A stretch of DNA of 46,276 nucleotides from Campylobacterota bacterium. GTDB lineage: Bacteria; Campylobacterota; Campylobacteria; Campylobacterales; Sulfurimonadaceae. This document shows positions 12,580 to 32,467 of the stretch, one piece after another (within the stretch, counting starts at the first letter, position 1; each line of letters opens with the position of its first letter). The notes under the pieces were generated by a model. The model searched no databases and was not told where the DNA came from. It saw only the letters and a list, made by a program, of their open reading frames with translations. The DNA lies in NCBI GenBank assembly GCA_023379705.1, contig JAMCPS010000010.1:1-46276 (forward strand). The letters are read 5' to 3'. A program made the translations under genes and the position numbers.

Positions 12580-14421
12580 ATGAAAACCAATCATAAAATT
12601 CTTTTTATTGTTGCTCTAATGCTTATCGGACTTGCCATTGCCACCATCACAAACGTTGCACTCAACTTTCGTGAATACGGCTATAGCAATGCTATTGAAA
12701 AATCCAAAATGACCGCTGAAATCGTTCGAGACGGATTGACGGCACATATGGTCAATGAGGTAATGGATAAACGTCAGTTTTTTCTTTCTAATATTTCCGA
12801 CCTCAAGGATGTTCAATCACTATGGATTGTTAGATCAGACAACGTAATTGCGCAACATGGTATGGGAATACCAAATGAGCGTCCCAGAGATGCAATTGAT
12901 CGTAAAGTTCTTAAAGAAGGTATATCTGCCCAAAAAATAACCGAAGACTCTAAAAATGCAGTTTTACGTGTTACTATCCCCTATATAGCCTCTGCAAATG
13001 ACAATCCGAACTGTTTAAGTTGTCACAACGCACAAGAGGGAGAAGTATTAGGTGCCATAAGTATGGAATTCAATATTAACGATGTTCGTCAAACAGGCGC
13101 TATGACCATTGCTAAAATTTTTGGTATCAATCTTCTCTTTTTAATCGTTGCATTATGGGTCACCAATCATTATTTCAAACCTTACATCCATTTACTCGAA
13201 AATTTGCAGCAAGGGATAAAACGCGCTCGTAACGGGGACTTTACCTACCGTTTTAAAACAACACTCAAAGATGCCGGAAGTGAAGTAGCGGAACAAATGA
13301 ATACCCTCTTTGAAAAAATGGAAGAGACTTTTTCAGGAATTAGAGACAATCTTAGTACTTTTATGTCTCGTTCAAATATTTCTTGTTCTGATCCCCTTAA
13401 TTCGACTGGAATAATTATTAAAGAGCTCTCTGATGTTTATAAATTCAAAAAGACCATTGAACTTGACAGCAGCAAAGAAGCTATTTATGATCGATTTATT
13501 TACGTGCTTCAAGAAAGATTTCATTTCACCCATTTTGCATTGTATGAAGTAGAAAAAAAGAGTAAAGAACGTAAGCTTATTTACATTACGGATCATTCAA
13601 GTTTCTGTCTTCCAATTGTTGATCAAGATGCTATGGAGTGCCGTGCTTATCGTACCAATAGTGATATCTATTCAACTGATTTTCCTAATATATGCCAAAA
13701 TTGTTCTGTTGATCACAAAGAATATACGTGCATTCCTCTGAATATTAATGATGACTTGGCTCTTATTCTCTCGTATTCTGCAAAAAATACAACAACGATA
13801 GAAGCACTCAATCTCGTTTTGCCTAGTATTAAAAACTATTTTGAAGCAGCAAAAGCGGTTATTGAAAGCAGAACTCTCATGGACAAACTTCGTGATTCTT
13901 CACTGCGCGATGGAGCGACACATCTCTACAATCGCCGATTTTTAGAAGAATTTATTGATAAAACTACTGAGCAAGCATTACGTTCACACCTTACCTACTC
14001 AATCCTTATGATTGATATTGACTATTTTAAAATGGTGAATGATACTTATGGACATGATTCAGGCGATGTCGTCATCAAAACATTGGCCGAAATTTTACAA
14101 CAAAACGTCAGAAAATCAGATCTCCCAATCCGTTATGGCGGTGAAGAGTTCTTAGTCTTATTACACAATACAACATCAGAAGGAGCTCTTCAAGTTGCAC
14201 AAAAAATTCGTACTGTTTTTGCTGCTAAAAAATATCAATTTGGCAGTGATACCGTTGAAAAAACTTTGAGTATCGGAATTTCCCATTTTCCTAGCGATGC
14301 TGATTCAATCTGGAAAGTGATCAAATTCGCTGATCTTGCTCTTTATGAGGCGAAGCACACAGGGCGTAATCGTGTTATCGAATTCGAACCAAGACTCTTC
14401 ACCGGAGGAGATGCATTCTAA
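12580..14421 (+). CDS. Membrane diguanylate cyclase with periplasmic c-heme sensor domain
   Basis: A 613-residue sensor. Order: TM1 (about 8-30), a periplasmic domain with a CLSCH c-type heme motif (C145, C148, H149) followed by LGAISMEF, TM2 (about 182-202), a HAMP-like linker, a GAF-like cytosolic region with a four-cysteine motif (C354, C372, C375, C384), and a GGDEF domain with GGEEF (520-524) and an RxxD I-site (RKSD, 511-514). The periplasmic part resembles DUF3365 (Tll0287-like) heme sensor domains. Predicted role: redox or ligand sensing at heme coupled to c-di-GMP synthesis. It is convergent with a paralogue of the same architecture at 14568-16373. The start is preceded by AAAAGGA. 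Ligand unknown. Confidence 0.88.
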   Translation: MKTNHKILFIVALMLIGLAIATITNVALNFREYGYSNAIEKSKMTAEIVRDGLTAHMVNEVMDKRQFFLSNISDLKDVQSLWIVRSDNVIAQHGMGIPNERPRDAIDRKVLKEGISAQKITEDSKNAVLRVTIPYIASANDNPNCLSCHNAQEGEVLGAISMEFNINDVRQTGAMTIAKIFGINLLFLIVALWVTNHYFKPYIHLLENLQQGIKRARNGDFTYRFKTTLKDAGSEVAEQMNTLFEKMEETFSGIRDNLSTFMSRSNISCSDPLNSTGIIIKELSDVYKFKKTIELDSSKEAIYDRFIYVLQERFHFTHFALYEVEKKSKERKLIYITDHSSFCLPIVDQDAMECRAYRTNSDIYSTDFPNICQNCSVDHKEYTCIPLNINDDLALILSYSAKNTTTIEALNLVLPSIKNYFEAAKAVIESRTLMDKLRDSSLRDGATHLYNRRFLEEFIDKTTEQALRSHLTYSILMIDIDYFKMVNDTYGHDSGDVVIKTLAEILQQNVRKSDLPIRYGGEEFLVLLHNTTSEGALQVAQKIRTVFAAKKYQFGSDTVEKTLSIGISHFPSDADSIWKVIKFADLALYEAKHTGRNRVIEFEPRLFTGGDAF

Positions 14422-20359: not shown

Positions 20360-21243
20360 ATGTATTAATTGTAGAAAATGAGATCTATCTCGCACAAAGT
20401 ATTGCTTCAAAACTCAGCGACCTAAGTCACAACTGTGACATTAGCAGTTCAACCAAAGAAGCGCTAAAAGGAGTCCCTTATGATGTCGTTCTTCTCTCGA
20501 CGAATATCAGCGGACATGATATTTATCCCGTAATTGAAGCGTATAAAGATGCCGTTGTTATCTTAATGGTGTCATACGTCAGCAATGATACTGTTTCTAA
20601 GCCGCTCGCCGCGGGGGCAAAAGATTACATTCTTAAACCTTTCATGATCGAAGAACTGATTCGTAAAATTCAACATTTCCAGAATCACGAACGACTTCGC
20701 CGCCAAAACAAAACTCATGAACGCTATTTAGCCCACATGTTTAATGGCATTAAAATTGAGGAAGATTTTGATAAAACAGAACTTCCTGTAATGATTTGCA
20801 GCGGATACCAAAAATATGCCGATGCTTTTGCCTTTCGTTATGCTCAACACAAAAATAAAACGCTTCAATTTGTTTCATTAAGCTCAACTAAGGCTCTACA
20901 AGACATCATTTCATTGCCAATAAACAGTATCCTTTATCTTACTGATTTTCAAAACTTCAAAAAGAGTGACCATAAAACGCTATTTGAACTGTTAGAAAAA
21001 CGTCAATGCATCATTTCCAGTACCGACTACATTGATCATGCACCCTTTCGTATGATTGAAGTCAAGAGCGAAAATCATCTCTTTGATCAAGGTGAAATTT
21101 TGCCGATTGAAGAATACGTCAAATACATTATGCTTAATTTTCAAAACCGTTTTCCGGATACGGAACTTTCAAAAAAACTAGGAATTTCACGAAAAAGCTT
21201 GTGGGAGAAAAGAAAAAAATATGGCATCATTAAGAAAAAATAG
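20356..21243 (+). CDS. Atypical orphan response regulator, HP1021/Cj1608 type
   Basis: A 295-residue protein: N-terminal receiver-like domain (1-115), a middle region without clear motif, and a C-terminal Fis-like helix-turn-helix (about 260-295; ELSKKLGISRKSLWEKRKKYG). The phosphoacceptor position of the receiver is a Ser (VVLLSTN, S48) and the acidic pocket is VENE, while the conserved Lys (ILKPF, K94) is kept, so it is a pseudo-receiver. Position after ispDF and size match HP1021 of H. pylori, an Asp-less regulator reported to bind oriC and respond to redox state. Three cysteines (C27, one in VMICSG, one in RQCIIS) could serve redox sensing. The start uses the ATGA overlap with ispDF; a TTG four codons earlier is less likely. 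Confidence 0.85.
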   Translation: MNVLIVENEIYLAQSIASKLSDLSHNCDISSSTKEALKGVPYDVVLLSTNISGHDIYPVIEAYKDAVVILMVSYVSNDTVSKPLAAGAKDYILKPFMIEELIRKIQHFQNHERLRRQNKTHERYLAHMFNGIKIEEDFDKTELPVMICSGYQKYADAFAFRYAQHKNKTLQFVSLSSTKALQDIISLPINSILYLTDFQNFKKSDHKTLFELLEKRQCIISSTDYIDHAPFRMIEVKSENHLFDQGEILPIEEYVKYIMLNFQNRFPDTELSKKLGISRKSLWEKRKKYGIIKKK

Positions 21244-22411
21244 AGCTCTTTACATTGACCAAGAGGCATTCTCTGCTCTCGCATTGCTCAAATCAGGCAT
21301 GCTTGCACCCGTAACACAGCTAATGAATGAGCAGCAATGCATTCAAGTACTTGAAAAAGGTATGTTTAATGGAAGTACCTTTCCGTTTCCTCTCATTCTT
21401 TCTCCCAACGGTAAAACCAATGAGACGATTCTTTTAAGTACCAAAAAGGGGGAAATACTAGAGCTTGTATGCGATCAAGAAGTCGTAGGTGAAATTACCG
21501 TAGACGAAGTTTTTGCTATTGATCCCTTAAAACGTTTGCGTCAAATATACGGCACCGAAGATCTCTCTCATCCAGGTGTAAACTCCACTTACAAACGACT
21601 TGGAAAATACGCCATATCGGGCGATTATATTATAGATGTCACTTCCATCACTTCCATACGCCAAACGATAAAAAATGCGCAGGATCAAATAGCAGCCAAG
21701 CATACAACTGCCATATTTATGGCAGCAAATCCTTTGCACCGTGCACACGAGCGTCTTATTCGCCAAAGTTTAGAGCGTACGGATCTCATTGTTATCTTTT
21801 TACTCAAACCTTACAATTCTGCCAACTTAAGCTATGAACTTCGACATGATGTGCTTCAGTTCTTCATAAAAAACTATTTACCTTTCAGCCGAGTCATTGT
21901 TGTCCCTCTTGAAAATAGCTATATTTTTGCCGGAAGCAATGAAGTTATTTTGGATGCCATAGTAGCAAAAAACTACGGGTGTAACCGTCTTATGATTGGA
22001 CAAAATCATGCTGGAATTGGAATGTATTATGACCGAAATGCGAACAAGTCTGTTATTGATCGCATGAAAGGGATAGATATCGAAGTATCTATGTCCAGCG
22101 AATACGTTTACTGCAATATGTGTAAAACACTCGTTAGTATTCAAACTTGCCCTCACGGACATCATCACCACATTTCCTACCATTCCGAATCGATACTTGA
22201 ACTCATGAAACAAGGTTTACTTCCCCCTGCCGTATTGGTACGTAAAGAGATATCTTCACTGATAGTTTCCTCTTTGTATCCAAATCGATTTAAAAACTTA
22301 GCCAAACTCTATTACGATATTATGCCTGTTAATGGCCTCCTCGAAGAGCACAGCGAACGAGACTTTTACGTAGAGCTCATGAAGCTTTATCAAACCACTT
22401 CACTTACCTAA
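21221..22411 (+). CDS. ATP-sulfurylase-like protein with altered active-site motifs
   Basis: A 396-residue protein with the full fold of bacterial ATP sulfurylase: PUA-like N-terminus (1-150), HIGH-type catalytic domain and a zinc site (C298, C301, C310, and H312 or H314 in CPHGH). The motifs that bind sulfate and ATP are changed. The usual QTRNPxHxxH is MAANPLHRAH (167-176), keeping only NP and the two His. GRDHAG is GQNHAG (260-265). The SGTxxR segment is SESILEL. True sulfate adenylyltransferase activity is therefore doubtful. It overlaps the upstream regulator gene by 23 bases and precedes pgpA, the same order I recall for C. jejuni Cj1608-Cj1610, so it is probably an ancient conserved paralogue with another role. 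GGGAGA precedes the start. Confidence 0.8.
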   Translation: MASLRKNRALYIDQEAFSALALLKSGMLAPVTQLMNEQQCIQVLEKGMFNGSTFPFPLILSPNGKTNETILLSTKKGEILELVCDQEVVGEITVDEVFAIDPLKRLRQIYGTEDLSHPGVNSTYKRLGKYAISGDYIIDVTSITSIRQTIKNAQDQIAAKHTTAIFMAANPLHRAHERLIRQSLERTDLIVIFLLKPYNSANLSYELRHDVLQFFIKNYLPFSRVIVVPLENSYIFAGSNEVILDAIVAKNYGCNRLMIGQNHAGIGMYYDRNANKSVIDRMKGIDIEVSMSSEYVYCNMCKTLVSIQTCPHGHHHHISYHSESILELMKQGLLPPAVLVRKEISSLIVSSLYPNRFKNLAKLYYDIMPVNGLLEEHSERDFYVELMKLYQTTSLT

Positions 22412-22420
22412 GGCTTACTC

Positions 22421-22930
22421 ATGAAACTAGATTGGTTTTTTCTTACTCTCTTTTACAGCGGACACTCACCAAAAGCCCCCGGAACTATTGGTACACTCGT
22501 TTCCCTTCCTATAGGAATAGCTGTTTTGATTTTTTTAGGACCTCAAACCCTTTTTTTACTCACCTTGCTGATTACTCTTTTTGCTATTAAAAGCATTGAC
22601 CGCTATGAATTGCAAAGTGGTATACATGATAATCAAAGAATTGTTATCGATGAATTGGCAGGAATGTGGTTTGCCCTTTCCATTGCACCTGGTATTATGT
22701 TTACTTTAAGTGATCTAACCCTATGGGAAAATGGAATTGCCGTGCAAATAGCACTCAGCTTTATCTTCTTTCGCATTTACGACATCAAAAAACCCTCTAT
22801 AATAGGACGGATCGATCGTAATGTAAAAGGTGGATGGGGAGTGATGGGGGATGATATTGTGGCTGGCTTTGCAGCAGGTATCAGTGCTGCCCTTGTTTGG
22901 CAGGCTTTCATAAAAATATCGGCTTTTTAA
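22421..22930 (+). CDS. pgpA: Phosphatidylglycerophosphatase A
   Basis: PgpA removes phosphate from phosphatidylglycerophosphate to give phosphatidylglycerol at the inner membrane. The 169-residue protein has the family motifs SGHSPKAPGTIGTL near the N-terminus, VIDELAGMW (near 73) and DIKKPSIIGRID with GGWGVMGDDIVAG (about 125-148), which carry the metal-binding acidic residues. Four hydrophobic segments are visible. It follows the ATP-sulfurylase-like gene by 9 bases, and its 3' end overlaps the convergent cyclase gene by 4 bases. Confidence 0.93.
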   Translation: MKLDWFFLTLFYSGHSPKAPGTIGTLVSLPIGIAVLIFLGPQTLFLLTLLITLFAIKSIDRYELQSGIHDNQRIVIDELAGMWFALSIAPGIMFTLSDLTLWENGIAVQIALSFIFFRIYDIKKPSIIGRIDRNVKGGWGVMGDDIVAGFAAGISAALVWQAFIKISAF

Positions 22931-24795: not shown

Positions 24796-25287
24796 CTACA
24801 CCATCATCGGCTCATCTGTTGGTTCAATTTCTTCATAATCTTCAACAATTTGATCTAGTATTTTTTGTGTTTTTTTGATTTTAGCAATATTTTCATCAAA
24901 AATTGCTTTAGATGCTGGGAATGCTTCGCTAAGCTCAGTATAAATCAAAATACGTCCCCCAAAATGACGATTAAACTCATCAAATGCACCTCGTAAATAG
25001 GCTTTGCGGGTTGTATGTCGAAAAAGGGCCTGTAACATTCTTTTACGTTCTTTAATAGGAATTGATTCATCAATCGCTTCAGCAACTCGTTTAATGTCTA
25101 AACGTGACAAATAAACACCGCTGTGAAACGGCGAGAGGAGTTTATCCGTTAATTCATCCACAAAACCAGGGACCGGTTCATCATCAGGAGTACTTTCACC
25201 GGTTGCATCACAACCCTCAGTATCACATTTTTCACGTACAAATTGATCAAATTCTGCTTTTAAATCACTAAAATCTGCTTTATTCAT
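24796..25287 (-). CDS. Conserved-looking acidic protein of unknown function, last gene of the molybdoenzyme operon
   Basis: A 163-residue soluble, acidic protein that I do not recognise. It has no signal peptide or membrane segment. Near the N-terminus is a CDTEGC pair of cysteines (about 21-26), then a flexible acidic/proline stretch, a mainly helical core with basic helices (RLDIKRVAEAI, KERKRMLQALFRH) and a predicted coiled coil near the C-terminus (IAKIKKTQKILDQIVEDYEE). It overlaps the AroE-N-like gene by 8 bases, so it is translated with it and probably serves maturation or regulation of the molybdoenzyme. Confidence 0.75.
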   Translation of the reverse strand: MNKADFSDLKAEFDQFVREKCDTEGCDATGESTPDDEPVPGFVDELTDKLLSPFHSGVYLSRLDIKRVAEAIDESIPIKERKRMLQALFRHTTRKAYLRGAFDEFNRHFGGRILIYTELSEAFPASKAIFDENIAKIKKTQKILDQIVEDYEEIEPTDEPMMV

Positions 25288-25726
25288 TGCATTCTCCTGT
25301 TGTTAATTCATAAAAATAGTGTGTCATCGAATTAAGTGCGATGTCATCCTGAAACTCATCGCTTTGCGCAAACTTTTCCAAAGCATTTGGCATAATAAGC
25401 TCACCTATGAGTTTTCCATCCACAATGCGAATAAAATCGCAATATCCTGCCTCTTTCGCCATTGCAGAAGCATTATCCAGCAGCCCAAAAGCCTCTTCTT
25501 GATATTCCATCGAAATCACCGCACCGCTTAGTTTAGAGCCACGCATTTGAGAAATTGTAAACGTGACATCATCAGGACGTATGTTCATAGGAATCGCCAT
25601 TGCATTGACATTATTACCTTTAAACAACTTGTTTACAATTGCACAAAAACGACTGCTATGCGCTTCTTCCGCAATATAGCCATAAAGTGCTGTTTCCACT
25701 GTTATGGAATTGTCATCATTCATCAT
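25280..25726 (-). CDS. Stand-alone shikimate-dehydrogenase N-domain-like protein (non-catalytic)
   Basis: A 148-residue protein that reads like the substrate-binding N-terminal domain of AroE without the NADP domain. Points of match: LYGYI near 14, AHSSRF (22-27) at the place of HSxSP, SGAVISMEYQEEAF (67-80) at the place of GxNVTxPxKExxF, and IVDGKLIGE (101-109) at the place of the LxDGRLxGxN motif. The catalytic Lys (here Gln76) and the Asn/Asp shikimate ligands are absent, so it is not an enzyme of that pathway. It sits directly after the multi-cluster FeS gene (adjacent stop and start) in the molybdoenzyme operon. I infer an accessory role, such as binding a ligand or the apo-enzyme. The similarity is by eye only. 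Confidence 0.65.
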   Translation of the reverse strand: MMNDDNSITVETALYGYIAEEAHSSRFCAIVNKLFKGNNVNAMAIPMNIRPDDVTFTISQMRGSKLSGAVISMEYQEEAFGLLDNASAMAKEAGYCDFIRIVDGKLIGELIMPNALEKFAQSDEFQDDIALNSMTHYFYELTTGECNE

Positions 25727-26821
25727 TTATAACCCCCAAAGCTCACGCGCTTCTTCCTCTTCGAGGCGGCAGCGGCGGCAAATTTTTTCACCTGCAACGG
25801 AACTAAACAACCCATCGCATTCATTACAGCGGCGTACAGCGAATGTAGCCAAATTTTGAACACTGGGCACATACCACTCTTTTAGATTATATGATGTTGA
25901 AAGAGTGATCGCATTAGGTTCACATACATCATGACACAGATGGCATTTAACGCATAAAAAAGGGTCAAAGTCAATTTTTGAATTGCGCATGTCCGAAGTC
26001 AATGCCCCCGTTGGACACACCCGGTGACACATTTCACATGCGGTACACAGTTCCTCATCCAAAAGTTTTTGAGAGGTAAAAATGATTTTTTCACTTTCTA
26101 CCACATGAAACTCGCTAGGTATATCAAAACGCTTTAATGCGGTAAAAAAGAGCTTACGGCGATCGGTGATTTTTTTTGTACGTAATGCTTTTGTATCGGA
26201 ACTGTCAGTTGTATATTGTACAAATTCATCGGTTGTCCGCTGGATCTCTTTTTCAAAATCACTGCGTGCTTTGCCAATACCGCGTAAATGAAAGTTCTTG
26301 AAAAAGTCACGCCGATCTGATTTTTCTTCAGGCACCTTCATATCAATAAACGCAATATTTTTAGTTTGAATCTTGTAAGGTGATTCGATCGCTTCTAATA
26401 AATAATTAGAGTTTTCAACAGTATTCATCATAACAGATAAAATATTTTCTCCAATCTCACATTGTCCACAATGCCCTGTATCGAGGACAACTCCTTCTTT
26501 CATTTGAGCAAAAGCGATTAACTGTTCACTACTCAAAGCAGCGATACAAGGTACGTTTTTTTGACACGAAATAAGATTTTGTTCATCTGATACAAACGAA
26601 AAGAAAAAATCGGTAGCACTGAAATCATCGATTTTTAAGGCCTCCGTAGGACACACTGCAACACATCCGGCACATTCGACACATTGTGCCTGATTAATAG
26701 AGGGCAAACGTCCTGCAATGCTTATCGCCCCAGTCGGACAGATATCGGCACAATGGGTACAAATCGAATTGACACTCAGCGCTCTGACACATGAACTTGG
26801 AGAGAGTATTAAAAGACTCAT
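25727..26821 (-). CDS. Multi-cluster 4Fe-4S ferredoxin-like protein with zinc-ribbon-like tail
   Basis: A 364-residue cytosolic protein without signal peptide. It has two pairs of ferredoxin-type motifs: C21-C24-C28 with an incomplete first set and C47-C50-C53-C57 at the N-terminus, then C259-C262-C265-C269 and C290-C293-C296-C300. Between them is a segment with C86, C92 and a CGQC pair (C118, C121). The C-terminus carries CxxC-x12-CxxC (C332, C335, C348, C351), like a zinc ribbon or rubredoxin knuckle. Similar proteins accompany TorD-type chaperones in molybdoenzyme operons and are thought to help cluster or cofactor loading. It overlaps the chaperone gene by 4 bases. Confidence 0.82.
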   Translation of the reverse strand: MSLLILSPSSCVRALSVNSICTHCADICPTGAISIAGRLPSINQAQCVECAGCVAVCPTEALKIDDFSATDFFFSFVSDEQNLISCQKNVPCIAALSSEQLIAFAQMKEGVVLDTGHCGQCEIGENILSVMMNTVENSNYLLEAIESPYKIQTKNIAFIDMKVPEEKSDRRDFFKNFHLRGIGKARSDFEKEIQRTTDEFVQYTTDSSDTKALRTKKITDRRKLFFTALKRFDIPSEFHVVESEKIIFTSQKLLDEELCTACEMCHRVCPTGALTSDMRNSKIDFDPFLCVKCHLCHDVCEPNAITLSTSYNLKEWYVPSVQNLATFAVRRCNECDGLFSSVAGEKICRRCRLEEEEARELWGL

Positions 26822-27441
26822 GAAACTTTAGGTATACCCGCACTTAACATTTCATTGTCCGAGAGTATAAACTCTAGTGCCATTTCTGCTACATCATAAT
26901 ACAAAGGAGTACGTGATTCATATTTCATATTTATAAGATACATTGGTGCCCACTGCAGCAAATGGGTATTTAAAAATCGATGTTGCACAGATTGCAATTC
27001 TACAGCAGAGTCAGTATCACCCTCTTCTATCGCTTTTATTTGTGCTTGACACAAGTGGTGCATAAATTCAAGTTCAACACCAATATGATCCGAGGAAACA
27101 ACACGTGCAATGCCGTAATCTACAACAAAGTCATATGCACTGTACATATCGGTAACCGGGTTTGCGCCACCTGTCTCGATCATTTGATCTGCACGCGTAT
27201 AAAATGTTTCATAAGGGACTAAGTGTAACAATGAAAGATTCGTAAAATCAGGATTTAAATATTCTTCCAAAAGCTTTTGATTGGACATAGTGTTTCGCAA
27301 TTCCCACTCATTCCAATGGGGCAAAAATTCTAAAACCGTTTTATCATTTATAAGCGTATCCAAAATTTCAACGTCTAGCTCTTGAAGCAATATCCGAGAA
27401 AGAAGGGCATAAATATTACTGCGTGCGATGATTTCATCCAT
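26818..27441 (-). CDS. TorD/DmsD-family molybdoenzyme chaperone
   Basis: A 207-residue all-helical protein of the TorD family. These bind the Tat signal and the apo-form of Mo-bisPGD enzymes and hold them until the cofactor is inserted. The motif SSDHIGVELEFMHHL (about 118-132) corresponds to the family signature PDHxxxELEFM, and VPYETFYTR (about 76-84) to the upstream Y-x-x-F segment. It follows the catalytic subunit gene after 87 bases that hold a hairpin over the stop codon. It is the likely private chaperone of the protein encoded at 27529-30921. AAGG precedes the ATG. Confidence 0.85.
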   Translation of the reverse strand: MDEIIARSNIYALLSRILLQELDVEILDTLINDKTVLEFLPHWNEWELRNTMSNQKLLEEYLNPDFTNLSLLHLVPYETFYTRADQMIETGGANPVTDMYSAYDFVVDYGIARVVSSDHIGVELEFMHHLCQAQIKAIEEGDTDSAVELQSVQHRFLNTHLLQWAPMYLINMKYESRTPLYYDVAEMALEFILSDNEMLSAGIPKVS

Positions 27442-27520
27442 TAATCAGACCTTTAAATAGTGATGGGATTGTAGCTTATCTGACTGAAAAGTACATGAGA
27501 GAAGAAGTTTATAAAAAGGT

Positions 27521-27540
27521 ATCAAGTCCTAAGACTTGAT
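27521..27540 (-). terminator. Hairpin over the stop codon between catalytic subunit and chaperone genes
   Basis: A perfect 8-bp stem ATCAAGTC/GACTTGAT with a 4-base loop that contains the TAG stop (27529-27531). In the minus direction it is followed by ACCTTTTTAT, so it may act as a partial terminator or a 3'-end stabiliser. It separates the structural genes (BCA) from the maturation genes. Confidence 0.6.
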
Positions 27541-30500
27541 AGTAACATCGTATGCGGTTGGATCAAGAGTAACCCAAGGTCGCTTGATATGGCGAGGACG
27601 ACGAATGGTTGAGTTAGAATCCAATCCACGAGTCAACGTGTCTCTCCATGCTTGATACACTTTGAGGTTATTGTCATAATTTACAAATATATCACCAATC
27701 TTGTCACCCGGCTGAGCAGGCTCTAACATAACCTTATGGTGCCAACAGTGCATACCAGAAACAGGGTCCGGATGAGGAGCTGCAACGGCATTTTGCCATG
27801 AACCGCTCAAGCCATCCCACCAAACATTTTCAGAGTCGCGATTGTACTCAGCAAAACGCTCAGCCTTAAACCCTTTGATCCCCTCAACGTATTTGAGTTT
27901 ACCCACTTTTCCGTCCATCTGAATCTCAGCAACCGGAACACCAAAACTATTGATACCTGTAGTTCCGCTATAGTCATCAATTTTTGTCTGTGCTCCCGCT
28001 TTACCGATGTTTGCAGGTGATTCTTGTAGGAACTCTTTGTTAGTCAAATCACGTGGTGCAACTCCTGTTGCTACTTTACCATCGCTTACACCATTTGGGA
28101 TGGTTACATGATTGGTTAATTTCCAACGTCCACCATGGTGTGAACATGCCAATGTACCTGGCATAACACCTTCAGTAGGCACTGCCATCGCAACGAAATA
28201 TCCACTGTCTAAACCAGAAACCGTATCCACAATTTTGACACGCATTGCATCGCCGCGTTTAAATCCAAGGCGTTGTGCATCTTTGGTATAGATCCAAATC
28301 GGATCATGATTTTGACTAATCTCCATCAAGTGCTTAGAATTTGCAGAACGTGTATGAATGTTATACGGCAAACGGAATACCGTGTTGAGCGCAAATGAGT
28401 TTTCCTCTTTCATATACATGTGGTTAACATGTGATACGAGATGTATCATCTCTGCTTTCTCTTTATCATTACGCGGATAGAATGGCATTGAGTACTCTCT
28501 CCAATGCCAATCCGTAGCCCATTGGGTATAGAATTCAAGCTTTTTAGTAAGCGTTGCAAACCCTTCCATCTTTTTACCGTCAATCTCAATACCGATTTTG
28601 GTATCTTTACCTTTATGGTCTTTTGCAGTTATTACCCCGCCCGCACCGATACTCACAGAAGCCGCATCAAATTTATGCCCGTGAGAGATAATCTCTCCAT
28701 CTTCCATTTTTAGTTCACGTTCCATCGCATGGTAGATTTTATCTTCTTCCATCCATGCACCATGATCACGTAAATAGGCGTATACAGGGAACTCTTCTTT
28801 GATGTAACGCTCATCATTGGTTGCTGTCTCTTTGAGTTTTGGCAAATTATCACCAAATGCAGCATCATACCACTCAGCGATCGTAACCGGTTTACCTGGA
28901 TGACGCTTGGATTCCCACATTTTTTTGATGCCGAGACTTCCATCTGCATCTATGTAATTCACACATAAATCAAACCAAAATTCATTCTCTTCCCAAACTT
29001 CGCCAAGACCCGCCTTAACGTGTGCTTCAAGAGTTGCACGGTTTGGATTTTTAGCTTTCCAGCCTGATTTCTCTAACGCTACACGCAATACCGGCTGACG
29101 GAAAGAGGTCCATCGTGCTGGCATTGTAGCCTCAGAGTGCTGATCATGACGCTCACCTGCAAGTCCCACCGGAAGAACATAGTCCATGTACCAGTTTGTT
29201 TCTGACCATACAGGAGAAAGATTCATAGTAAGTTCCATCTTCGTTTCGTCTTTGAGGACTTCGATCCAACGGAAACCGTCCGGATTAATCCAGACAGGGT
29301 TATACATACGCGGAATGTAAACAGAAAGCTTACTCGGAACCGTTAAACCACGATCGTTCCATTTCTTTTGCCATGCGGTATCGGTAAGAAGATGCGGTAA
29401 TAAATACGACATTTCATACGTTGATAAAGGCCACTCAGGAGGCCATGTAAGTTCATTCCATACTTTAACCTTAGGAACATCCGCTCCTCCTGCACCCTGA
29501 CCCAATGTAGAGCTTCCACCCTTACCGGAAACAGAAATAACGTGCCAGTGGTGAAAGAAAGTACCGCCCTCTGTACCAATAGCGCCACGAAGACCAATAC
29601 AGAAATACGCTGAACGCCCACCCATCCATGCACCGCGGTTACCCGCAGCTGCGGCACGCCAAATGTACGTAGAAATTGCATCACCAGCCCAGATAAACAT
29701 TTCATAGAGCTTTTCCAATTTATAAGCAGGGACATGTGTTTCTTTAACAGCATAATCCAACGTATACGGAGCATACATATCTTTTAAAAGCTCCATGTAA
29801 CTGTCAAAACTCTTGTCAGCCGGCGCTTTAGTAATTTGACCTTTTGCAAGCATGAAATCAAGATGCTCTTGATCGTTCATCAGTGTTTCCCAATTGAACC
29901 ACTTTTTGACAAACTTTTTGTCTGTCATATTTTCCTGCAAAATACGATTGGCAAGATAGAGATAAATTACCGCTTCCGTACCCGGCCATGCAGCAATCCA
30001 AAGATCGGACATACCTGCAGAATTGGACATACGAGGGTCCATAACGACCATCTTGGCGCCTTTTTTACGCGCATCCGCAATAAAACTTGCTGATTGTTGG
30101 AAATAGTGTCCTGCATCTGCTGCATGAGAAGAATTCAAGAAAATCAATTTCGCATTTGCCCAGTCAGGACTCGTACGGTCATCATTAGCAGTCCAAATCG
30201 ACGGTGTACGTCCGTTTGATGAACAAATATTCGTATGGGAATTGTACGAATCAAGACCCATTGTTTCCCATACTTGTGGAACAAATCCATTTTCATTAGG
30301 ACGACCGACGTGATACATAACGGATTTACGAGAAAGTTCATCCCCTTTACGAAGAGTGTCTCCCATCTTCTTACCGATGGTAGTCATCGCTTCATCCCAT
30401 GTAGTACGAATCCATTTACCCTCACCACGTTTAGAACCCGGTGCGCGTTTCAATGGAAACGGAATACGGTCAGGATCGTACATTTGTGATTGGACCGCAT

Positions 30501-30921
30501 ATCCTTTGGCACAATTACGCCCACGAGAAGCTGGATGCAATGGATTACCCATGTATTTTTTAACGGTCAATGTTTTTTTGTCAATCCATGCTGTCAAACC
30601 ACAAGAAGCTTCACAGTTTGAACACGCAGTTGGAACAATCATATAATCATGAACGATAATACCATCTGGGTTTTCTTCACTTTGAACACCATGACGGTCA
30701 ATACCACCACGCTTCCAGTCATTTCCATCAAGCTCTTGAAAGCCTTCCCATTGATCCAATGGAGGGTAAAATGAAAGACTGTCCGGAGTATTTGTAAATT
30801 TACTTTTCTCAACAGAATCAGCAGCTGCATCGGTTGAAAATACGCCCTTAGCAATCGCAGCACCTGCAACTGTAAATGCGGCACCTTTTAAAAATGTTCT
30901 TCTACTTTCTAAATACATCAT
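27529..30921 (-). CDS. Tat-exported molybdopterin oxidoreductase, catalytic subunit (DMSO reductase family)
   Basis: An 1130-residue Mo-bisPGD enzyme of the complex iron-sulfur molybdoenzyme group. The twin-arginine signal is SRRTFLKG (R7, R8) followed by a hydrophobic stretch. The FS0 cluster motif is CxxCxxxC...C (C100, C103, C107, C137). The probable Mo ligand is C233 in NICSSNG, placing it with the Cys-ligated Psr/Phs/Ttr/Soe/Srd side, not the Asp-ligated nitrate reductases. It is longer than PsrA/PhsA (about 750-800) and closer to the large tetrathionate or selenate reductase-type enzymes. Gene order B-C-A matches ttrBCA and srdBCA as I recall them. The substrate is not assignable; a sulfur or selenium oxyanion is plausible. 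The second ATG (30918) is better spaced from GAGG than the first. Confidence 0.9.
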   Translation of the reverse strand: MMYLESRRTFLKGAAFTVAGAAIAKGVFSTDAAADSVEKSKFTNTPDSLSFYPPLDQWEGFQELDGNDWKRGGIDRHGVQSEENPDGIIVHDYMIVPTACSNCEASCGLTAWIDKKTLTVKKYMGNPLHPASRGRNCAKGYAVQSQMYDPDRIPFPLKRAPGSKRGEGKWIRTTWDEAMTTIGKKMGDTLRKGDELSRKSVMYHVGRPNENGFVPQVWETMGLDSYNSHTNICSSNGRTPSIWTANDDRTSPDWANAKLIFLNSSHAADAGHYFQQSASFIADARKKGAKMVVMDPRMSNSAGMSDLWIAAWPGTEAVIYLYLANRILQENMTDKKFVKKWFNWETLMNDQEHLDFMLAKGQITKAPADKSFDSYMELLKDMYAPYTLDYAVKETHVPAYKLEKLYEMFIWAGDAISTYIWRAAAAGNRGAWMGGRSAYFCIGLRGAIGTEGGTFFHHWHVISVSGKGGSSTLGQGAGGADVPKVKVWNELTWPPEWPLSTYEMSYLLPHLLTDTAWQKKWNDRGLTVPSKLSVYIPRMYNPVWINPDGFRWIEVLKDETKMELTMNLSPVWSETNWYMDYVLPVGLAGERHDQHSEATMPARWTSFRQPVLRVALEKSGWKAKNPNRATLEAHVKAGLGEVWEENEFWFDLCVNYIDADGSLGIKKMWESKRHPGKPVTIAEWYDAAFGDNLPKLKETATNDERYIKEEFPVYAYLRDHGAWMEEDKIYHAMERELKMEDGEIISHGHKFDAASVSIGAGGVITAKDHKGKDTKIGIEIDGKKMEGFATLTKKLEFYTQWATDWHWREYSMPFYPRNDKEKAEMIHLVSHVNHMYMKEENSFALNTVFRLPYNIHTRSANSKHLMEISQNHDPIWIYTKDAQRLGFKRGDAMRVKIVDTVSGLDSGYFVAMAVPTEGVMPGTLACSHHGGRWKLTNHVTIPNGVSDGKVATGVAPRDLTNKEFLQESPANIGKAGAQTKIDDYSGTTGINSFGVPVAEIQMDGKVGKLKYVEGIKGFKAERFAEYNRDSENVWWDGLSGSWQNAVAAPHPDPVSGMHCWHHKVMLEPAQPGDKIGDIFVNYDNNLKVYQAWRDTLTRGLDSNSTIRRPRHIKRPWVTLDPTAYDVTIKS

Positions 30922-30929
30922 TTACCTCT

Positions 30930-31829
30930 TTAGCTCATGTTTAACAATTGTGGGATAACTAGCCATACGTGTTTGGTAATCCACAATCCGACCAACGCAG
31001 ACACCGCAGCGATTTTCAACAAATAATACGATTTATCCATGATACTTTTGCATACCAATGCCATAGGAATCAAGAATGCAACAATTTGACCAAGCCAGAA
31101 CATAAACGTGTATTCTCCACCTTTTACAAACTCTAATGTTGCGATTACTTCTTCTGCTTTCATTGGTCCAAAGAATAGTTCCAGCATGTACATGATAAAT
31201 GCCGTAAGAGCACTAAATCCAAGGATTAGTGCTAGATCTTTTTTGATATCATCGCTAAATTTATTTCCGCCAACCAAAAGCATTGTTGCAGATCCTGCCA
31301 AGAAGGCGGCTAGCATCATTTGAATTGATTCTGTAGGCATTTGCCACAATTCACGTGCCGTAGATTGAGCCATCAACCCAGCCGTATACAACGTAACTGG
31401 AACGCCCAAGACAACCCCGTATCCTAGTAATTTGTCGTACATTGCTACGTCTTTTTTCATATAAAGGAAATACGCCATACCCAATATAATACCAACAAAA
31501 CCTGTAGCCAACCATGCACCGATTGTAATCATCGAGCTCATGTGCGGATGGAAAAAGATATGCCAGAATCGAAACATCTGATGCAAATCAATAACCGTAA
31601 AAAATAAGAACAGGTGAATAAATACAATTGATATTATCACTGATGGCAAACGGATAAATCCGGTTTGCTCAGGGTATTTTTTCAACAAATAAAAGGCAAC
31701 AAAAATGATACCGGTACCGATACTTTTTGCCCACATGTTCATGGTAATAATCCAACCCCATGCGATACCCGGCAATCCTACATCAAGGACTACAACCGCA
31801 TTGGTTGCCGCAATAAGTTCATGTGCCAT
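30930..31829 (-). CDS. NrfD/PsrC-type quinone-interacting membrane subunit
   Basis: A 299-residue protein with about eight predicted membrane segments. Family marks are the DLHQMFRFWHIFFHP segment (about 82-96), which resembles the D-x-x-x-x-x-RFW motif near the quinone site in PsrC, and the GGEYTFMFWLGQIVAF stretch near residue 235. It anchors the complex to the inner membrane and exchanges electrons with menaquinone, which fits mqnE in the same window. No heme ligand pattern of a cytochrome b type is evident. It overlaps the B-subunit gene by one base and is followed 8 bases later by the catalytic gene. Confidence 0.88.
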   Translation of the reverse strand: MAHELIAATNAVVVLDVGLPGIAWGWIITMNMWAKSIGTGIIFVAFYLLKKYPEQTGFIRLPSVIISIVFIHLFLFFTVIDLHQMFRFWHIFFHPHMSSMITIGAWLATGFVGIILGMAYFLYMKKDVAMYDKLLGYGVVLGVPVTLYTAGLMAQSTARELWQMPTESIQMMLAAFLAGSATMLLVGGNKFSDDIKKDLALILGFSALTAFIMYMLELFFGPMKAEEVIATLEFVKGGEYTFMFWLGQIVAFLIPMALVCKSIMDKSYYLLKIAAVSALVGLWITKHVWLVIPQLLNMS

Positions 31830-32467
31830 TAGTGGTGCCCTCCTACTGGAAGATGTGTAAGATTATTAAACAATGAATGTCCTTCAGCTCTGAATGATGC
31901 TAATGGATTAAGAGTAACGTTCCCGCCACCAACATAGTAATGGTGAGGATCCGTCCCTTTTTCCGGCTTGCGCACTTGAACGTTGCCTTGGTGCTCTTGA
32001 ATGTATTTGCTGATGTTTGACATTGGATCATCCAAATCACCAAAAATATTTGCTTCTACCGGACACGCAACAACACATGATGGCATCATAGCACTTGCAA
32101 TACGGTGTGCACAATAAGTACATTTATCAGCAGTTTGCGTAATAGGATCAATGTAAATTGCTCCGTATGGACATGCCATGATACAACCCGCACAACCAAT
32201 ACAACGCTCTTTGTCAATATTCACAATACCGTTTTCAATATAATGCAATGCACTAACCGGACAAATACGTTCACACGGTGCATTCGCACAATGATTACAA
32301 CGAAGAGGAGTAAAAGTTCGTTTTGTTTCTGGGAAACTTCCGACATCTACATATTTTACACGAAGACGCCATGTACTTAGAGGAACTTCGTTCTCTACTT
32401 TACATGCGATCTCACAGCCCTTACAGCCCATACAAAGGCGAAGGTCTACCAAGAACCCTAATTGCAT
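31829..32467 (-). CDS. Four-cluster 4Fe-4S electron transfer subunit (DmsB/PsrB/NrfC type)
   Basis: A 212-residue protein with four cysteine clusters: CMGCKGCEIAC (12-22), CNHCANAPCERIC, CIGCAGCIMAC and CTYCAHRI...CVVAC, the standard set for B subunits of molybdoenzymes. It carries electrons between the quinone-facing membrane subunit and the catalytic subunit. It has no signal peptide and is probably exported with the Tat-targeted catalytic partner. It is the first gene of the seven-gene operon, with a strong AAGGAGA before the ATG. The C-terminus ends in His-rich GGHH. Confidence 0.93.
   Translation of the reverse strand: MQLGFLVDLRLCMGCKGCEIACKVENEVPLSTWRLRVKYVDVGSFPETKRTFTPLRCNHCANAPCERICPVSALHYIENGIVNIDKERCIGCAGCIMACPYGAIYIDPITQTADKCTYCAHRIASAMMPSCVVACPVEANIFGDLDDPMSNISKYIQEHQGNVQVRKPEKGTDPHHYYVGGGNVTLNPLASFRAEGHSLFNNLTHLPVGGHH

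Follow-up and report, generated by a model that had tools for sequence, protein, structure and literature searches.

The 46,276-nucleotide stretch of DNA analysed here (the window) raises the question of what an incomplete relative of shikimate dehydrogenase (AroE) does in the operon of a molybdoenzyme. The gene concerned (25280..25726, minus strand) encodes a protein of 148 residues, which an earlier note on this DNA had described as an isolated, catalytically dead AroE N-domain. Its assignment draws on Pfam, genome match coordinates, an active-site alignment and dN/dS. Both the open reading frame and its N-domain match proved to be real: the Pfam Shikimate_dh_N profile is significant over residues 18-96 (the N-domain core, 25439-25675, minus strand), with an E-value of 7.2e-8 and a score of 33 bits (cut-off 27). 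NCBIfam AroE models cover residues 6-110 with E-values as good as 2.8e-8, far under their full-length cut-offs, and the top matches among solved structures are the AroE chains 2hk9 (4e-6) and 2hk7. No Rossmann (NADP) domain follows the N-domain in the 148-residue protein. A canonical AroE is encoded separately in the same genome, on another contig. An AlphaFold model built from 12 close sequences reached a pLDDT of 46 and was set aside as unusable.

The operon comprises seven genes, all on the minus strand, of which the AroE-like gene is the sixth. In order, they encode a PsrB/TtrB-like iron-sulfur electron-transfer subunit (31829..32467; NCBIfam TtrB 1.9e-59 and ArrB 8.2e-50, both below cut-off), an NrfD/PsrC-type membrane anchor subunit (30930..31829; Pfam NrfD 6e-15), a molybdopterin catalytic subunit of 1130 residues, termed MoA (27529..30921), a molybdoenzyme chaperone of the TorD/NarJ family (26818..27441; Pfam Nitrate_red_del 2.3e-15, with the NCBIfam type II DMSO reductase chaperone and TorD models matching below cut-off), the polyferredoxin Fd364 (25727..26821), the AroE-like protein and, last, the 163-residue protein X163 (24796..25287). 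Adjacent genes mostly abut or share a few bases; the AroE-like frame begins right after the stop codon of Fd364 and shares 8 nt with X163. The flush arrangement of Mo enzyme, TorD and iron-sulfur protein given in the earlier note therefore stands, except that its "FeS assembly-like protein" is a polyferredoxin, a candidate accessory. A terminator-like stem-loop lies between MoA and TorD (27520-27541, minus strand), although such sites are no commoner here than in shuffled sequence.

The loci closest to the window are those of Sulfuricurvum metagenome-assembled genomes, where the AroE-like protein is 68-93% identical, and the window thus belongs to a Sulfuricurvum-like genome. A sulfate adenylyltransferase-like gene and pgpA adjoin the operon (21221-22930), as these two genes also do in Sulfurovum mangrovi and in most of the Sulfuricurvum loci. 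In two other loci an insertion of about 3 kb follows X163 (L002:9929-13047 and L009:9938-12780), flanked in L002 by a partial X163 copy (12817-13047).

Examination of MoA places it, as judged from its sequence, among the Psr/Phs-like molybdoenzymes. It has the molybdopterin domains (Pfam), it matches the Thermus thiosulfate/polysulfide reductase best among solved structures (2vpw, 8.9e-35), and it is encoded together with NrfD and iron-sulfur subunits. One of its Cys residues, invariant in the 20 MoA sequences aligned, corresponds to the Mo-ligating Cys of the Thermus enzyme. Like the Psr/Phs enzymes in these respects, MoA nevertheless forms a distinct clade of 1090-1140 residues, well under all NCBIfam cut-offs. 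Clusters of psr genes have been described in Sulfurovum and Sulfurimonas (psrA1B1CDE is named in PMC10045233), and those of Sulfurovum were examined by transcriptomics (PMC10045233). The window protein carries the TAT motif SRRTFLK; SRRxFLK opens every complete MoA N-terminus, so that MoA is predicted to be TAT-exported and periplasmic; the Pfam and NCBIfam TAT profiles match sub-threshold. By inspection, TorD, Fd364, the AroE-like protein and X163 have no signal peptide.

Fd364 contains 4Fe-4S motifs (Pfam Fer4 models) and a C-terminal, zinc-ribbon-like CxxC...CxxC pair, and its alignment shows invariant Cys residues. Homologues occur in proteobacterial molybdoenzyme operons, namely those of Azoarcus, Cereibacter and Sulfitobacter, which supports the idea that Fd364 is a wider, putative molybdoenzyme accessory. 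In the Psr-type operon on plasmid pAZKH of Azoarcus sp. KH32C, a 231-residue HisA/HisF-like protein (L129:4812-5507; Pfam His_biosynth 3.6e-5, just over the cut-off) lies between TorD and the Fd364 homologue; possibly, another metabolic enzyme fold was recruited at the same position. X163 is conserved in alignment and has no Pfam family, and neither it nor the AroE-like protein has a listed Pfam match to TorD/NarJ profiles. Near a second, different molybdoenzyme, a short X163 paralogue adjoins the gene of an Mrp-like ATPase (L081:1402-1794 and L082:9099-9521). Within the material searched, all occurrences of the AroE-like protein and of X163 are in Campylobacterota. Outside this phylum, annotated plasmids and one peptide-pattern contig scan that reaches close relatives only yielded no AroE-like member, the plasmid search returning Sulfurovum and ordinary AroE paralogues; X163 was found on none of the annotated plasmids searched outside Sulfurovum.

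The extent of the AroE-like family was assessed with a profile of 12 sequences searched against 399 genomes of the order Campylobacterales. Matches at E <= 1e-3 occur in 121 genomes, many of the weakest being canonical AroE, and matches at 1e-10 or better in 104. The description as an isolated N-domain holds locally for the window protein and fails for the family as a whole: in most members from the window's own bacterial family outside Sulfuricurvum, and likewise in several further families, the chain has 220-280 residues, with a degenerate, Rossmann-like continuation. An alignment of 30 diverse members matches canonical AroE of the same order with 99.1% probability over 223 columns and retrieves AroE structures across nearly the whole chain (1nvt, 1.1e-26), and one full-length member matches an AroE model over residues 7-233 (1.4e-19). 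Because these longer relatives match AroE from end to end, the family is AroE-derived, with a full-length ancestral member that carried a degenerate Rossmann domain, and the N-domain-only form of Sulfuricurvum and some other groups is a secondary truncation. In a maximum-likelihood tree of the N-domain (102 columns, with weak inner forks), the family forms one clade (99/99), with canonical AroE apart (100/99), and no fewer than six switches between the full-length and the N-domain-only form are needed, which indicates that the Rossmann domain was lost several times. The proposal that the C-terminal helix of AroE was kept after excision of the Rossmann domain is unsupported for the Sulfuricurvum tail. 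For the short Sulfurovum-type form such retention is weakly suggested: when the comparison was with the tails of a single full-length group, 0-1 of 200 shuffles did as well in four of five related sequences, several comparisons having been tried.

In the tree the AroE-like clade lies nearer to proteobacterial shikimate dehydrogenase paralogues than to canonical AroE. These paralogues (Rhizobium, Azoarcus, Comamonadaceae and Caballeronia plasmids) are the nearest relatives found outside the order, at 36% identity. Unlike the AroE-like family, those on the plasmids keep the catalytic Lys, and their neighbours are genes of sugar, aromatic or amino-acid metabolism rather than molybdoenzymes.

The active site was examined in a joint alignment of 37 family members with 23 canonical AroE sequences. 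In the window protein, the catalytic Lys, K63 in the canonical AroE of the same genome, is replaced by Gln76 (codon 25499-25501, minus strand), as the earlier note had recognized together with the missing NADP domain, and the catalytic Asp (D99) by Met112. The HSxS motif had been placed at AHSS, which is out of register; in a gap-free register anchored on a shared Asn (N32 in the window protein, N21 in AroE), its first Ser is Ser25 and its second is Phe27. None of the 37 members retains the catalytic Lys or the second Ser of the carboxylate-binding SxS motif, and only seven retain Asp99 and one Asn84, whereas structural positions persist (Asn21 in 36/37, Gly95 in 29/37). Some of the substitutions are not random: Pro61 has become Glu in 30/37 members, Asn84 Asp in 26/37 and Lys63 Gln in 19/37. 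Newly conserved positions are Asn37-Ile38, Phe43 and Ser51, the last of which is also Ser in some of the proteobacterial paralogues. The NADP-binding Rossmann domain with its GAGG motif, absent from the window protein, is degenerate in the longer relatives. Since the catalytic residues are lost and several are replaced by other conserved ones, the family appears to be dead as a shikimate dehydrogenase, its pocket re-coded and not simply eroded. Full-length relatives thus share descent with AroE (Pfam PF08501 and PF01488) at the level of the fold over the whole chain, but they have lost its catalytic and substrate residues, and the canonical enzyme is kept elsewhere in the genome.

The gene is under strong purifying selection. 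In comparison with eight Sulfuricurvum loci, its dN/dS is 0.04-0.07 (values from the seven of eight in which dS is not saturated), similar to those of TorD, Fd364, X163 and MoA, and the reading as a decaying fragment is therefore rejected.

Among the sampled loci, many families of the order show the same gene arrangement from PsrB to X163, and X163 lies directly downstream (3') of the AroE-like gene in 91 of the 104 genomes. MoA (58-93% identity) was found in 131 of the 399 genomes and in 98 of the 104 that encode the AroE-like protein, and the proposed tie to a molybdoenzyme is thereby borne out, homologues occurring mainly in or with the MoA system. The six exceptions are all assemblies of at least 160 contigs. 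The co-occurrence has a Fisher p of 4e-56, a statistic that ignores phylogeny, and partly reflects shared ancestry. Physical linkage alone does not suffice to account for the pairing, because in 37 of the 98 genomes the two genes are on different contigs or far apart in the assembly. Conversely, 33 genomes contain MoA with no AroE-like match at 1e-10. Among those inspected, a very divergent short AroE-like frame often lies upstream of X163 (L071-L074, L077, L079 and L085), and in three loci (L075, L076 and L080) the gene has been lost from an otherwise retained operon; the protein is therefore not indispensable. In one family of genomes (f23) the AroE-like gene lies away from TorD and Fd364, with MoA, Fd364 and X163 elsewhere in the genome. 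In all four f23 genomes inspected (L047, L048, L064 and L065) it is directly downstream of dnaJ.

We consider it probable, at roughly 60%, that the AroE-derived pseudoenzyme is a dedicated cytoplasmic accessory factor for the Psr-like, TAT-exported molybdoenzyme, acting with TorD, Fd364 and X163 before export. Several findings together point in this direction: descent from AroE, catalytic loss, a Rossmann domain lost more than once, purifying selection, linkage within the operon, and co-occurrence with MoA even where unlinked. A relative of shikimate dehydrogenase that lost its catalytic residues would have been recruited as a helper in building or checking MoA. Because MoA has an export signal and the accessory proteins show none, the four-protein module would most likely act on the precursor in the cytoplasm, and for the same reason maturation fits better than sensing of the substrate. 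Its role is thus most likely maturation, or quality control, by loading cofactor or clusters or by holding the precursor. The AroE fold would now serve as a binding scaffold, and the re-coded pocket, in which Glu replaces Pro, Asp replaces Asn and Gln replaces Lys, may touch a new ligand or partner. As with the redox enzyme maturation proteins (REMPs) TorD and NarJ, the factor is encoded and co-inherited with its client, and it appears to have no signal peptide while the client is TAT-exported. Small cytoplasmic accessory genes likewise stand beside TorD and ferredoxin in the formate dehydrogenase operon with DUF3305 and DUF3306 (PMC4464133), and we found a comparable arrangement with TorD and ferredoxin in Sulfitobacter. 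As kin of the AroE-like protein or X163, DUF3305 and DUF3306 were rejected (hhalign probabilities under 1%). A bolder version, tentative and in our view unlikely, is that the old shikimate pocket was rebuilt to bind something specific: the molybdopterin cofactor, the TAT precursor, or a sulfur or iron-sulfur intermediate. This would define a new class of assembly factor made from a dead enzyme of central metabolism, with the Azoarcus HisA/HisF-like protein as a second independent case.

The re-coding of pocket positions to conserved residues, in a fold known for binding a metabolite, would also suit a ligand-responsive sensor, one that adjusts how much molybdoenzyme is made or how active it is upon binding a metabolite or sulfur compound. 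We regard this as unlikely, as the 148-residue protein has no DNA-binding or signalling domain in Pfam and it is tightly partnered with a chaperone and a ferredoxin, not with a regulator. It is more doubtful still that the protein belongs to a soluble electron-transfer complex in the cytoplasm, assembled around Fd364, of which it and X163 would be structural subunits. The order Fd364/AroE-like/X163 is very stable and Fd364 has several 4Fe-4S motifs, but MoA is predicted to be periplasmic, which would leave the module outside the working complex, and the AroE-like protein, which lacks any cofactor motif, is not always present. That the protein is an active enzyme whose remodelled pocket performs a new chemistry is quite improbable: conserved Glu, Asp and Gln do occupy former active-site positions, yet the family shares no invariant new catalytic motif, and its Rossmann domain is either degenerate or lacking. 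A decaying AroE paralogue carried as a functionless passenger, to which the repeated domain losses and occasional gene losses might point, can practically be dismissed given a dN/dS as low as that of its neighbours and the fact that the gene accompanies MoA even where the two are unlinked.

AroE paralogues are familiar, as are pseudoenzymes and molybdoenzyme chaperones. Searches of the open literature for shikimate dehydrogenase with pseudoenzymes or molybdoenzymes returned nothing relevant, and in the literature searched we found no description of an AroE pseudoenzyme that stays with a single molybdoenzyme across an order. Under the preferred reading as an accessory factor, a conserved family gains a concrete candidate role; its annotated member in Sulfurovum mangrovi is a "hypothetical protein". 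The family may also present, step by step, the passage from metabolic enzyme to assembly helper, from an enzyme-like full chain through a degenerate Rossmann domain and the N-domain alone to loss of the gene. For the Campylobacterota, the implication is that a sulfur-type molybdoenzyme may need a cytoplasmic module of four proteins for its assembly and not TorD alone.
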